Assembly: GCF_001675285.1 (NCBI RefSeq)
Contig: NZ_LSGQ01000030.1
Location: 310,001-374,000, forward strand
Source: Elizabethkingia miricola
GTDB lineage: Bacteria; Bacteroidota; Bacteroidia; Flavobacteriales; Weeksellaceae
Direction: 5' to 3'
DNA: 64,000 bases
Shown: positions 38,338 through 41,994 of the stretch, in pieces
How the letters are laid out: each line of letters opens with the position of its first letter
Position numbering within the stretch: position 1 is the stretch's first letter
The notes under the pieces: generated by a model
Told to the model about the DNA's origin: nothing
What the model saw: only the letters and a program-made list of their open reading frames with translations
Database searches by the model: none
Program-made: the position numbers and the translations under genes

Positions 38338-38407
38338 ACTATATTCGGTCTGAACAACAAAAATACTAAAGAAACAGTAATTTACAGAATCCTGTCTATA
38401 AAAAGAA

Positions 38408-38428
38408 ACCGGAAGAAAATCTTCCGGT
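38408..38428 (-). terminator. terminator of the rtcB-prfH operon
   Basis: ACCGGAAGA (38408-38416) pairs with TCTTCCGGT (38420-38428). On the minus strand it is followed by a T-rich run, 15 nt after the TPR gene stop. Confidence 0.8.
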
Positions 38429-38443
38429 CAGTTTTAAAGCCTG

Positions 38444-38944
38444 TCAGGCTTTCTTTTTCTTTTTTCGGGATATTTTCCCTTTAAGAAATTTTTTGCGGTT
38501 TTCAAGCTGATGTACCATTCCCTCGTCAAAGCTATATTCCCTGACTTCTGATAATATCTTTAAAGCTTTTTTTATTTTTCCTTTTCGTTCCTTTAAGATA
38601 GATCTTAAGAATAGAATATCTGCTTTATTGATTCCTTTCAGTGTAAGACTATAAGCAATTAGCTTTTCGGCCTCTTCATAGTCTTCATTATACAGCAGAC
38701 ATTTAATATAAAAATGAGGTATACTGATACTGGTCACATCATTTTTCATGGCTTCTTCAAAATATACCTTCGCAGTATTATAATCTTTTAGTATTTCGGA
38801 ATACACTCTGGCCATAAGACAGAGACTATCCGCATCCTGAGGATCATAAGACAAAGCATAATTCAGAGCTTCTACACAATCCGGTATACTGTAAGGATAA
38901 TGATCTAAAGCTTCGAAATAATATTTGTTTTTAGTTAAGTTCAT
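38444..38944 (-). CDS. TPR-like protein, last gene of the rtcB-prfH operon
   Basis: A 166-residue, mostly helical, soluble protein. L-M-A-R-V-Y-S-E-I-L-K-D-Y-N-T-A-K-V-Y-F near 44-63 and a second similar unit near 75-105 look like tetratricopeptide repeats. The C-terminus is very basic (R-K-K-K-K-K), as in RNA- or ribosome-binding tails. Its ATG overlaps the end of prfH by 14 nt. A role as scaffold for the ribosome repair proteins is inference from the operon only. Low-complexity C-termini can also be neutral. Confidence 0.8.
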   Translation of the reverse strand: MNLTKNKYYFEALDHYPYSIPDCVEALNYALSYDPQDADSLCLMARVYSEILKDYNTAKVYFEEAMKNDVTSISIPHFYIKCLLYNEDYEEAEKLIAYSLTLKGINKADILFLRSILKERKGKIKKALKILSEVREYSFDEGMVHQLENRKKFLKGKISRKKKKKA

Positions 38945-39629
38945 TTCTGTAATTTTTTAGCTCATTTTTGAGGAACTGCCTTTGTTTTTTAAAGGATTTA
39001 TCCTGATGATTCTTTTTAAAATCTGTTCCGGAATAAGTACGAATCGGATTTCCGCGCTGTACCTGCATATGATTGCTCCAGGTATCCTGCATTCTGCGCT
39101 GCATTTGCAAAATATGCTGTGCCATTACCTTTTCTTTTAAACGTGTAATTGATAATTTTTTATTCTCCAGCTGTGATCGGGAATCCTGTACAAAAACACT
39201 TTCTCCGGTTGGTATATGGGTAGCACGAACCGCTGTATTTACTTTGTTTACATTCTGTCCTCCGCTCCCCTGGCTGCGAGTTGTCTGAAACTGAACGTCT
39301 TTTTCATCAAAATGAATTTTTTCTGCATCTTCAATTTCAAATACTCCAACAAACCAATTACTCCTTTTGTGCAGCTTTCTGTATGTACTCTTTCCGACCC
39401 AACAAATACTTCCTAACCAGCTTTTTAGAAATGTTATTATGTCTTTATCCTTTAAAAGCAGGGTTACGGATTTTAATGTCAGGTTCTCATCACCGTTTTC
39501 ACGATGGATAATTTTATAATCTATTTTTTCTTGTTTTACTTCCTCCAGGAAAACCTTCAGAATCTTAGCAACTACCCACTGGCATTCTAAAGGTCCTCTT
39601 CCCGAAGTTATTTGTATGAATTTTTCCAT
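38931..39629 (-). CDS. prfH: peptide chain release factor homologue PrfH (RF-H)
   Basis: A 232-residue class I release-factor-like protein. The GGQ motif is at 123-125 within S-G-G-Q-N-V-N-K-V, the peptidyl-tRNA hydrolysis domain, followed by a basic C-terminal helix. The N-terminal 100 residues replace the stop-codon-recognition domain of RF1/RF2, so it should not read stop codons. Published work on Escherichia coli RtcB2-PrfH shows that PrfH releases peptides from ribosomes cut between A1493 and G1494 of 16S rRNA, after which RtcB religates the rRNA. Genes on both sides overlap it (14 and 22 nt), so all are translated together. Confidence 0.93.
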   Translation of the reverse strand: MEKFIQITSGRGPLECQWVVAKILKVFLEEVKQEKIDYKIIHRENGDENLTLKSVTLLLKDKDIITFLKSWLGSICWVGKSTYRKLHKRSNWFVGVFEIEDAEKIHFDEKDVQFQTTRSQGSGGQNVNKVNTAVRATHIPTGESVFVQDSRSQLENKKLSITRLKEKVMAQHILQMQRRMQDTWSNHMQVQRGNPIRTYSGTDFKKNHQDKSFKKQRQFLKNELKNYRNELN

Positions 39630-40201
39630 TTTTGTAAAATCTTTAAGATAGCGTCTCTGTGTTTCGCTTCTTTAATAAACGTTGGCAATCTTTCAACCAT
39701 ACGCATTTTGTATGGTAATCTGGTTCTCAGTTCAGAAGAGACATAGTTTTCCATTTCTAAAAGGTGTTCCATATTTCTAGCCCAGAATAATTTTCCTTTG
39801 AAGTCTTCCTGAAAATAAAACGGACATCCAAATACCGAGTCACGGATTAAGCCATTTTCTTTTGTAGCGTAATTCATTACATATTTCTCTGTCTTAGGCT
39901 TAATCTCGAATGCTGTATTACAGGCCTCACAATTTACAGGCAGGCTTTCTGGTTTTGTTTTCAGTCCGCCTTTTATATGGTGAATAAAATGTCCACATGC
40001 AGGACAATTGAGCTTTACGATTGCTTTATAAAACTCCACGTCTTCCTTCTTCTTTCTGAGATTACAATGCAGGCATTCCAGCTCTGCATTTTCATCACAC
40101 CCACATTCACTTTTAACTGTCGCATCTTTTCCACAAAAAGGGCAGATAACCAAGCAGTCTTTGTAGTAGGCATAATATTGTTGTTTATATCTCTTTTTCA
40201 T
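39608..40201 (-). CDS. double zinc-ribbon protein between rtcB and prfH
   Basis: A 197-residue, basic protein I do not recognise. C20-x2-C23 with C43-x2-C46, and C66-x2-C69 with C91-x2-C94, make two four-cysteine zinc ribbons; Cys33, Cys35 and Cys126 are extra. The C-terminal half (about 105-197) is helical and rich in Lys/Arg, with no catalytic motif that I can see. Zinc ribbons of this kind often bind RNA. It lies 28 nt downstream of rtcB and overlaps prfH by 22 nt. It is probably a third component of the ribosome repair pathway, for example an adaptor that recognises cut 30S subunits; that is inference. Confidence 0.85.
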   Translation of the reverse strand: MKKRYKQQYYAYYKDCLVICPFCGKDATVKSECGCDENAELECLHCNLRKKKEDVEFYKAIVKLNCPACGHFIHHIKGGLKTKPESLPVNCEACNTAFEIKPKTEKYVMNYATKENGLIRDSVFGCPFYFQEDFKGKLFWARNMEHLLEMENYVSSELRTRLPYKMRMVERLPTFIKEAKHRDAILKILQKWKNSYK

Positions 40202-40229
40202 TTCTTTATTTTTTGTTGTTCACACAAGG

Positions 40230-41621
40230 CTACTTATCCATTCTTACAATTCTTGGTTGAAATGTCCCCAGAATATCTACTAATTCGCTTTGTGCATTCA
40301 TTACTTCATGAATGTCTTTATAAGCCATTGGAGCTTCTTCGGCATTTCCACCCATCAGAGTTACATTTTTTAATTTCAACTCCTTCCTAATATCACTTTG
40401 AGTGAAAAGACTTCTGCATGCTCCTCTGGAATGAGCCCTTCCGGCGCCATGTGAAGCCGAATGCAATGAATCAGGATTCCCTTTACCGCAAACAATAAAC
40501 CCTTTCGCTGTCATAGATCCCGGAATCATTCCCAGCTCATTTTCATTAGCCGGTGTTGCTCCTTTGCGGTGAACAATCACTTCTTTTCCGTTATGAATTT
40601 CTTTCCAGGCAAAGTTATGATGGTTTTCTATTTTAGCTTTTACTCTCCCGCCTACAGCTTTAACCAATCTTCGGTGAATATCATCATGACAGGCTGAAGC
40701 ATAATCTCCGGCCAGAGTCATTGCAGTCCAGTATTCTAAGCCCATATGAGTATTTAGGTCTAGCCATGCAAATTGTTGCGCTTCTTTAGGCAGTGGACAT
40801 TGCTCTACAGCAACTCTGGAGTAATATTGAGCAATCTCTGCGCCTAGACCACGGGAGCCACTGTGAGATAAAATCCCAAGATATTTCCCTTTTGGAAGGC
40901 CGATTTGGCTATCTTCTTCTGTAATCTCCACTTCACCAAATTCTACGAAATGGTTTCCGCCTCCGGATGTTCCCATCTGTTTAATAGCTTTTGCTTTCAG
41001 TCTTCGCAGCACCGGGATCATTCCGAAAGTATCCCTTTCAAAGATCTCATGTTCAATATGAGATTTATGGGTTTCGTACATTCCGAATTTGGTATGTTCT
41101 GCCAGTGCTTTTTCATACTTATCTTTTGCCCCATCCAGATATGAAACCGGAGTATCCAAAATGCTAAGGCTCATTCTGCAGCCAATGTCCATCCCTACAC
41201 CGTACGGAATTACAGCATTTTCTACCGCCAGAACACCACCGATCGGAAGACCGTAGCCACTATGTGCATCAGGCATTAATGCTCCTTGAAGCGATATTGG
41301 CAATTTTAGCGCTGTATAAAGCTGATTCTTTGCCTCTTCTGAAATATTGTGTCCGAAAACCTGAAATGCAGCTCTCTGACTATTCAGCATTCGTTTTTCA
41401 GTCTTTTTAGATAATAATAAAGCTTCTGCTATTTGCCCGAAACTTAAGTCTTTTTCATAGTTTTCCGGATGCAGCAGAATTTCTTTTAAAAGAGATTTTA
41501 CATAATGAATATTTTTGGTTGCAAAATTTCTTTTCATAACTTCCAGAGCAACATTAACACTCTGATTATTAGGATAGCCAATCTTTAATATATCTTTTCC
41601 TTTAAGTTTTAAATTTCCCAT
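40230..41621 (-). CDS. rtcB: RNA ligase RtcB (PrfH-associated type)
   Basis: GTP/Mn-dependent RNA ligase that joins 2',3'-cyclic phosphate to 5'-hydroxyl ends. 463 residues from the ATG at 41621 (M-G-N-L-K-L-K-G-K-D), longer than E. coli RtcB (408). Metal ligands appear in G-V-G-M-D-I-G-C-R-M near 145 and G-G-G-N-H-F near 226; H-S-G-S-R-G-L-G near 260 follows. The likely guanylylated His is in H-R-K-G-A-T-P-A near 357. H-G-A-G-R-A-H-S-R follows near 400. An ATG at 41642 would add 7 residues, but a hairpin sits right before it. First gene of the operon with a zinc-ribbon gene, prfH and a TPR gene. Confidence 0.94.
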   Translation of the reverse strand: MGNLKLKGKDILKIGYPNNQSVNVALEVMKRNFATKNIHYVKSLLKEILLHPENYEKDLSFGQIAEALLLSKKTEKRMLNSQRAAFQVFGHNISEEAKNQLYTALKLPISLQGALMPDAHSGYGLPIGGVLAVENAVIPYGVGMDIGCRMSLSILDTPVSYLDGAKDKYEKALAEHTKFGMYETHKSHIEHEIFERDTFGMIPVLRRLKAKAIKQMGTSGGGNHFVEFGEVEITEEDSQIGLPKGKYLGILSHSGSRGLGAEIAQYYSRVAVEQCPLPKEAQQFAWLDLNTHMGLEYWTAMTLAGDYASACHDDIHRRLVKAVGGRVKAKIENHHNFAWKEIHNGKEVIVHRKGATPANENELGMIPGSMTAKGFIVCGKGNPDSLHSASHGAGRAHSRGACRSLFTQSDIRKELKLKNVTLMGGNAEEAPMAYKDIHEVMNAQSELVDILGTFQPRIVRMDK

Positions 41622-41642
41622 TGTTTTGTTCTTTAAATTCAT

Positions 41643-41755: not shown

Positions 41756-41814
41756 CAAGAATTAATTTTGAAATAGAGATTCGGGGAAACTAAGTTTAAA
41801 ATATTGCGCAATAA

Positions 41815-41845
41815 AAAACCCGAAATCTCTACGACTTCGGGTTTT
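41815..41845 (-). terminator. intrinsic terminator in the rtcB leader (attenuator, segments 3 and 4)
   Basis: On the minus strand AAAACCCGAA (41845-41836) pairs perfectly with TTCGGGTTTT (41824-41815) around an 11-nt loop and runs into T-rich sequence: a strong terminator 194 nt before the rtcB start, in the direction of rtcB. No other minus-strand gene precedes it, apart from the 25-codon leader ORF. It therefore looks like a conditional attenuator rather than the end of a gene. Confidence 0.8.
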
Positions 41846-41867
41846 GATATTTCATTGTACTGTTATT

Positions 41868-41945
41868 CTAAGAATGTACCAAACCACGAAGCCTCACCAC
41901 TACAAGTGGCAATCCTGCTGAAGAGTTTTTCTGAAATCTGAACAT
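41868..41945 (-). CDS. 25-residue leader peptide ORF upstream of rtcB
   Basis: ATG at 41945 to TAG at 41868. Its 25 residues begin M-F-R-F-Q-K-N and have a Leu/Val/Arg-rich second half: L-P-L-V-V-V-R-L-R-G-L-V at 12-23. It starts about 35 nt after the predicted transcription start, and its stop is 22 nt before the terminator stem. Codons 19-22 contain the segment that can pair either with the stretch ahead of the ATG or with the 5' arm of the terminator. This is the arrangement of ribosome-controlled attenuators such as trp or ilv. Translation is not proven. Confidence 0.5.
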   Translation of the reverse strand: MFRFQKNSSAGLPLVVVRLRGLVHS

Positions 41946-41947
41946 TA

Positions 41948-41958
41948 CTTCGTTGTTT
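41948..41958 (-). promoter_or_regulatory. attenuator segment 1 in the rtcB leader
   Basis: Minus strand AAACAACGAAG. It pairs with segment 2 (41881-41891, CTTCGTGGTTT) with a single A-G mismatch in 11 positions, enclosing the small hairpin CCACT-TGT-AGTGG at 41894-41906. It is nearly a copy of segment 3 (AAACCCGAAG, 41835-41844), which also pairs with segment 2 with one bulged T. Segments 1 and 3 thus compete for segment 2. Confidence 0.55.
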
Positions 41959-41986
41959 TTAAATGGTTAAACTTTATTTTGAGCTG

Positions 41987-41994
41987 CAAATATA
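41987..41994 (-). promoter_or_regulatory. -7 promoter box (TATATTTG) of the rtcB leader
   Basis: The minus strand reads TATATTTG, with a TTG 17 nt upstream as possible -33 element. I found no TAnnTTTG box between the leader terminator and rtcB, so this is the best promoter for the whole operon. Confidence 0.6.

Follow-up and report, generated by a model that had tools for sequence, protein, structure and literature searches.

In E. coli, protection from colicin E3 is conferred by RtcB2-PrfH (PMC9223846), and in P. aeruginosa prfH (PA5470) adjoins the RtcB-like gene armZ, which is controlled by the leader peptide PA5471.1 through a proposed attenuation driven by ribosome-targeting drugs (PMC12057347). 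Four kinds of genes next to prfH-rtcB were described by Burroughs & Aravind in 2019, encoding a tetratricopeptide repeat (TPR) protein, a Pol-beta nucleotidyltransferase, a protein that combines one or two zinc ribbons with a helical C-terminus of positive charge, and a charged helical protein; the authors suggest that such accessory proteins act as scaffolds and bind rRNA (PMC6514570). In this study, we analyzed a stretch of 64,000 nucleotides from Elizabethkingia miricola (the window), in which rtcB, a zinc-ribbon gene (ZnR), prfH, and a TPR gene form a single compact operon on the minus strand, preceded by a leader whose predicted anatomy is that of ribosome-dependent transcription attenuation. 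We consider it likely that this operon is an inducible ribosome rescue-and-repair unit under stall-sensing leader attenuation, with the TPR and ZnR proteins included as putative adaptors.

The locus resembles the E. coli system in its adjacent rtcB and prfH genes and in the catalytic motifs of both, and by analogy release from E3-cut ribosomes would be followed by religation of the 16S rRNA (PMC9223846). However, the window RtcB belongs to another clade and stays below the cut-off of the RtcB2-type model TIGR03073 (136.5 against 271.8 bits), with PRK09588 likewise not passed, so that the label RtcB2-PrfH used in an earlier note on this DNA is a functional analogy, of which only the RtcB-PrfH part, backed by the catalytic motifs, can be kept. 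Further differences from E. coli are a basic PrfH tail of 28 residues, the TPR and ZnR genes, and the architecture of the leader. Compared with the drug-induced PA5471.1-armZ-prfH locus, the likeness is one of layout, namely a short leader open reading frame (ORF) and predicted terminators before an rtcB-like gene beside prfH, while the phylum and the leader are different and attenuation is still called unconfirmed there (PMC12057347). The RFH-RtcB variants of Burroughs & Aravind (Fig. 4G-I) with TPR and zinc-ribbon genes contain exactly the two extra genes of the window, and their co-occurrence with prfH-rtcB was thus already known; the earlier note, which knew of no described function for the two proteins, holds insofar as a function has only been suggested, but their association with prfH-rtcB had been published in 2019 (PMC6514570). 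Leader, PrfH tail, and a distinction between core and accessory genes are not mentioned in the passages of that article at hand (PMC6514570), and it is these three that are new, whereas the gene set itself is known.

A conserved leader upstream of rtcB

The span 38444-41621, given to the operon in the earlier note, omits an upstream regulatory element, which consists of the following parts:

41813-41994, minus strand: leader element upstream of rtcB, comprising a -7 box, a 25-codon ORF, and an intrinsic terminator
41987-41994, minus strand: putative Bacteroidota-type -7 promoter box TATATTTG, a consensus match 49 nt upstream of the leader ATG
41947-41953, minus strand: strand 1 (ACGAAGU), before the leader ATG, pairing with strand 2
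41868-41945, minus strand: leader ORF of 25 codons, MFRFQKNSSAGLPLVVVRLRGLVHS followed by a stop
41877-41893, minus strand: strand 2 (GGCUUCGUGGUUUGGUA), codons 18-23 including the LR codons, 5' half of the predicted antiterminator
41833-41849, minus strand: strand 3 (UAUCAAAACCCGAAGUC), 3' half of the predicted antiterminator, overlapping the 5' arm of the terminator
41813-41845, minus strand: intrinsic terminator AAAACCCGAAG...UUUCGGGUUUUUU, hairpin and U-run between leader ORF and rtcB

Using tblastn, a homologous 25-codon ORF was found in the same position in 35 leaders of Weeksellaceae, Capnocytophaga, and Cloacibacterium, while the ORF has 24-28 codons in the remaining genera; it is present in a single copy in its own genome. 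Nearly all 35 leaders carry the motif TAnnTTTG about 46-51 nt before the leader ATG (at -59 in Capnocytophaga locus L028); a simple sigma-70 promoter scan was of no use, with matches no more frequent than in shuffled sequences. A covariance model built from 26 leaders (hits accepted at E <= 0.02) recovered the leader in 62 of 68 flavobacterial prfH loci, 36 of them unused in building, and always just upstream of the first gene of the operon, be it rtcB, a charged-protein gene, or prfH; some species may be counted twice among these 68 loci, once from each of two collections. The remaining six comprise one leader identified by its peptide (L045), two sub-threshold matches (L035, L038), and three leader-like remnants seen by eye (L036, L037, L040). 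Among 59 genomes of relatives, 15 contain the leader, with one match each. No Rfam leader or sRNA (small RNA) family scored above its gathering threshold in the window, the best sub-threshold match being BTnc005 with 25.7 of 174.8 bits. Since no literature on a flavobacterial rtcB/prfH leader was found, this leader is apparently unreported so far.

In all 35 leaders, the ORF ends with TAG, and the stop mostly lies 29 nt before the terminator. Pro13 of the leader peptide is invariant with all four Pro codons in use, which argues for translation of the ORF. At the RNA level, helix 1:2, hairpin P, and terminator T together revealed 28 two-sided changes, compared with 7.2 +/- 3.4 in shuffled and 1-13 in slid alignments, and 96.8% of cells were paired as opposed to 33-55% when slid; the terminator, a helix of 11 pairs, reached 98.4% over 28 leaders. 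Strands 1 and 2 covary between genera (ACGAAGC/GCUUCGU, ACGAAGAA/UUCUUCGU, ACGAAGAC/GUCUUCGU, CUGAAG/CUUCAG, CCGAAG/CUUCGG). Strand 2 can also pair with the 5' arm of the terminator through about 12-16 pairs with one bulge, and this 2:3 duplex was calculated at -18.4 kcal/mol in the window and at a mean of -16.1 over 36 leaders compared to -7.1 for shuffled sequences. It occurs in genus-specific forms (GGUUU/AAACC, GGCUU/AAGCC, GGACUU/AAGUCC), and pairings within a group are mostly stronger than those between groups. Thus, three predicted competing pairings, 1:2, 2:3, and the terminator, are conserved.

In attenuators of the trp, erm, and ABC-F type, the 1:2, 2:3, and 3:4 pairings exclude one another and an ORF spans strands 1 and 2. 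The flavobacterial leader has the same exclusive pairings and the same position of the ORF, but no run of a single codon, a peptide that is not conserved between genera, and ribosome repair as its target. It combines a short conserved predicted ORF, an intrinsic terminator between this ORF and the first gene, and an antiterminator that overlaps the ORF and would exclude the terminator, the signal for this antiterminator being weak on Weeksellaceae alone.

Proposed mechanism

Ribosomes running normally over the 25 codons would cover strand 2, so that strand 3 would pair with strand 4 and transcription would stop before rtcB. A ribosome stalled or slowed in the first half of the leader ORF, be it by ribosome damage such as a colicin E3-type RNase cut at the decoding center or by poisoning, would leave strand 2 free to pair with strand 3, by which the terminator would be prevented and the polymerase could enter the operon. 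By analogy with E. coli, PrfH would then release the peptide from the damaged 70S ribosome and RtcB would reseal the 16S rRNA. The TPR protein would be a core partner, probably docking PrfH (perhaps via its basic tail) and RtcB on the damaged 30S subunit through a Lys-rich helix, and ZnR an optional RNA-binding adaptor. We infer induction by ribosome stalling by analogy, as the control of armZ by PA5471.1 next to prfH makes stall-sensing the most likely signal in the flavobacterial leader.

Several points, together with those given below for the proteins, weigh against this reading. On the Weeksellaceae alignment, no two-sided change is seen in the core 2:3 pairs, and since they hardly vary within this family, support for 2:3 comes from the comparison between genera. 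Strand 3 lies within the terminator arm, so that its conservation could stem from the terminator alone. In equilibrium folding, 2:3 is favored over 1:2 as long as strand 4 has not been transcribed, even with no ribosome present, and the terminator always wins thereafter. Equilibrium folding thus gives no switch and was discarded as uninformative proof of one, and the model needs co-transcriptional timing and masking by the ribosome.

Operon genes and putative repair substrate

The operon is organized as follows:

40230-41642, minus strand: rtcB, RNA 3'-phosphate/5'-OH ligase of a Bacteroidota clade (PF01139, 269 bits, cut-off 27)
39608-40201, minus strand: ZnR, 197 aa, zinc-ribbon region and basic helical C-terminal domain of about 75 aa
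38931-39629, minus strand: prfH, 232 aa, peptide chain release factor H (TIGR03072, 208.3 bits, cut-off 166.65), GGQ at residue 123
38934-39038, minus strand: basic C-terminal PrfH extension, residues 198-232, about 28 residues beyond the end of E. coli PrfH
38444-38944, minus strand: TPR, 166 aa, four TPR-like hairpins and Lys-rich C-terminal helix (PF14559, above cut-off)
38407-38429, minus strand: terminator-like hairpin closing the operon 3' of TPR, 10-pair stem followed by a U-rich tail

For rtcB, the internal ATG at 41621 is the likely start, where homologues begin. The four genes described in the earlier note, including the overlaps of 22 nt (ZnR/prfH) and 14 nt (prfH/TPR), were confirmed in their positions, all on the minus strand, and rtcB is separated from ZnR by a gap of 28 nt. 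Gene order and overlaps were also found in other genera; the 14-nt overlap recurs in nearly all loci of Chryseobacterium and Elizabethkingia, and of the eight ZnR loci in the first locus set, six have the 22-nt overlap. The module consists of a TIGR03072-type prfH adjoining an rtcB ligase gene, with the ligase motifs (GMDIGC, GGGNHF, SHSGSRG, HHNF, SHGAGR) and the GGQ intact. RtcB also carries residues matching D95, C98, N202, H203, E206, H234, H329, and H404 of P. horikoshii RtcB. The nearest PrfH among the retrieved loci was that of Elizabethkingia sp. YR214 (94% identity), and the closest solved chain was 9mor_A (E 5e-99). ZnR gave no family match above cut-off, and none of the four proteins matched the PADLOC 2023 anti-phage defence models at E <= 0.01.

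Another substrate than the E3 site, such as a tRNA or another rRNA cut, is the alternative that survives best. It would fit the distinct clade of RtcB, below cut-off for TIGR03073, and sister operons with nucleotidyltransferase, KptA-like, and exonuclease genes suited to end processing. As PrfH is a release factor acting on E3-cut ribosomes in E. coli (PMC9223846) and E3-type domains occur in two genomes of the Chryseobacterium group (Weeksellaceae), we regard it as rather unlikely, though worth keeping in mind, and favor repair of the E3 site. These colicin E3-type cytotoxic domains (PF09000; G464:C1:400387-400602 and G495:C14:23255-23470) are located at the C-terminus of open frames of about 2300 residues, and the damage that is repaired could plausibly arise in nature from such proteins.

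Core and accessory partners of PrfH

Co-occurrence was determined in 395 Bacteroidota genomes (390 for counts of the TPR family), 28 of which encode a PrfH above cut-off. While rtcB adjoins prfH in every mapped PrfH genome and TPR in 26 of 28, ZnR does so in only seven. The TPR family (E <= 1e-12) was detected in 29 of the 390 genomes, only three of them without PrfH and one of these three beside an rtcB (Fisher p ~5e-35 for co-occurrence with PrfH, before any kinship correction); members of the ZnR family were present in 18 of 395 genomes, in 11 of these 18 away from prfH. A PrfH tree of 72 rows required at least 3 changes for TPR, 10 for ZnR, 15 for the nucleotidyltransferase, and 20 for the charged protein. 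Based on adjacency and changes, TPR is a core part of the operon and ZnR, with at least 10 changes, an interchangeable accessory. The earlier note had taken both extra genes as locked in and had proposed a neighborhood survey of the two families; its view is borne out for TPR, mostly found with prfH, and has to be given up for ZnR, mostly found elsewhere.

This bears on the explanation that TPR and ZnR are hitchhikers that are co-transcribed but play no part in ribosome repair. The scattered occurrence of ZnR, often gained and lost, would agree with it, as would two TPR homologues that stand alone (L171, L172), but the nearly constant company of TPR and prfH does not, and accessory genes are known to accrete in similar counter-conflict operons (PMC6514570); we therefore consider hitchhiking unlikely and a role as adaptors the better explanation. 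The TPR homologue of a Flavobacterium-group genome without prfH follows rtcB and a further, unassigned gene (L173:6404-9871), a layout according to which TPR may associate with RtcB rather than with PrfH.

The cysteine pairs 20/23, 43/46, 66/69, and 91/94 are invariant in the ZnR alignment. Its C-terminal domain, described by Burroughs & Aravind as being of unknown provenance (PMC6514570), turned out to be a widespread domain of other bacteria, common to Bacillota, Actinomycetota, and Cyanobacteria, and its pattern WA.N..HL..L..Y....LR......LP.FIK..KNRD..L aligns across phyla. ZnR relatives were also found in plasmid records of Streptomyces, Priestia, and Nostoc; the neighbors of two of these were inspected and included neither rtcB nor prfH, and no ZnR was found in viral contigs or phages. 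An apparent in-frame TAA in five Flavobacterium ZnR genes was recognized as the stop of the gene itself, just inside the end of the match. The AlphaFold2 model of ZnR consists of beta ribbons and three helices at low confidence (predicted local distance difference test, pLDDT, of 63), and a fold search with this model resulted in no match at E <= 0.001. For the TPR protein, a TPR solenoid ending in a basic helix was predicted by AlphaFold2 at high confidence (pLDDT 89.9, predicted template modeling score 0.83), with a tail (residues 138-166) of pI 10.5 and net charge +8; compared to the PDB, only generic TPR folds were found.

The PrfH extension measures 30-42 aa in TPR-bearing operons and 4-20 aa in PrfHs without TPR. 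All but one intact PrfH of the former possess the basic tail, and those lacking both TPR and tail include E. coli, Novosphingobium, Thiodictyon, Aureibacter, Algoriella, Empedobacter, and two other Bacteroidota. It is a natural guess from these sequences that the groove of the TPR protein binds the PrfH tail. Exceptions are Cloacibacterium, with TPR and no tail, and Capnocytophaga, with a tail and no TPR found; the correlation is based on few independent changes (two for the tail, three for TPR), and a test by independent pairs had to be abandoned for want of pairs. The roles of TPR and ZnR are likewise deduced solely from co-occurrence, charge, and fold. The PDB entries 9mor and 9mq4 contain a tailed PrfH that matches Capnocytophaga sequences, and a search of the PDB with the Capnocytophaga charged protein and RtcB found neither of them in these two entries. 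The division into a core (RtcB, PrfH, TPR) and shuffled accessories (ZnR, nucleotidyltransferase, charged protein) shows which partner to study first.

Signal of the leader and wider occurrence

With regard to the signal, the leader might sense an amino acid or a specific peptide-arrest ligand of the macrolide type instead of general ribosome stalling. A +X+ motif is a feature of Erm leader peptides, which the R-L-R of the leader peptide resembles, and G-L-P at codons 11-13 hardly varies among Weeksellaceae. However, the RLR codons are fixed at the nucleotide level (AGG in 32 and CTT in 34 of 35 leaders), which argues for RNA pairing as strand 2, and outside Weeksellaceae the peptide differs (LRG, LRD, LQD) without a shared arrest motif upstream, so that a signal of this kind seems improbable. 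Alternatively, the leader could be a separate small gene or sRNA that ends at a terminator of its own, with rtcB transcribed from a promoter further downstream and no attenuation. This would be in line with a strong terminator, which in Weeksellaceae precedes the first gene of the operon by about 170-380 nt, and with weak sub-threshold Rfam sRNA matches, but is equally improbable given that the leader occurs solely upstream of this operon, in the same orientation, before any first gene, and once per genome, that the complementarity of strands 2 and 3 exceeds the need of the terminator and covaries between genera, and that an ORF and a terminator before an operon are the standard layout of attenuators.

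Stall-sensing attenuation may extend beyond Flavobacteriales, where short ORFs were inspected in E. coli, Proteus, Aureibacter, and two other Bacteroidota. In E. coli, a short ORF (MTNPLSMTLCRPFQD, then a stop; L180:2690-2737) with a strong Shine-Dalgarno sequence (AAGGAGG) is located upstream of rtcB2, and Proteus harbors a similar one (MTTTNMNTLCGQSQK, then a stop; L182), also with AAGGAGG, upstream of rtcB. Both share TLC and a hairpin with a compensatory change, and in each the final part of the ORF is complementary to a strand further downstream (GCAGAC/GUCUGC and GCGGACA/UGUCCGC, respectively), making them candidate leader peptides of an apparently related type. Very short upstream ORFs were also read by eye in Aureibacter and the two Bacteroidota outside Flavobacteriales, and RtcB-PrfH modules may quite generally be under leader control. 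We give about even chances to the broader idea that RtcB-PrfH operons are generally under stall-sensing leader ORFs (flavobacterial, PA5471.1, and E. coli/Proteus), with a PrfH tail docking to a dedicated TPR scaffold added in Flavobacteriales.

If true, bacteria would read ribosome damage via the translation failure of the damaged ribosome itself. To the question of how cut ribosomes are sensed and repair is switched on, the leader attenuator would offer a direct and testable answer, with the damaged ribosome as sensor. The leader would also join two literatures, on ribotoxin repair in E. coli and on the antibiotic-induced armZ-prfH of Pseudomonas, and predicts that the repair genes of Bacteroidota respond to ribosome-targeting drugs.

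Variation among related operons

The commonest occupant of the rtcB-prfH slot or of a downstream position is a gene for a nucleotidyltransferase-like protein of about 181 aa (PF10706, 21.8 bits, just above cut-off; L004:4883-5428, L008:5446-5997, and 19 other loci), probably the Pol-beta nucleotidyltransferase of Burroughs & Aravind. Many operons possess a gene for a highly charged protein of about 250 aa without a Pfam match, preceding rtcB, ZnR, or prfH (L006:3761-4495, L027:5188-5982) and, where present, being the first gene after the leader. In the prfH loci of Capnocytophaga (L028:7498-8067, L027:7208-7762), genes for a KptA/Tpt1 RNA 2'-phosphotransferase and a DEDD 3'-5' exonuclease separate prfH from rtcB, which is located downstream rather than upstream in these loci.

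Frameshifts in rtcB, prfH, or TPR disrupt several operons, e.g., L025, L029, L045, L005, L019, and L020. Distant related loci (L046 onward, from Patescibacteria and others; about 25-51% identity and no rtcB) were set aside as release factors outside PrfH operons, and matches to PrfH in phage records resembled ordinary RF2-type genes besides a few stray fragments. The E. miricola genome harbors a second rtcB of the general type (G000:C3:660203-660964), flanked by nucleotidyltransferase-like genes. Finally, the Cloacibacterium operon (L044:4529-7118) looks chimeric, with identities to the proteins of the window of 76% for RtcB, 53% for TPR, and only 46% for PrfH.

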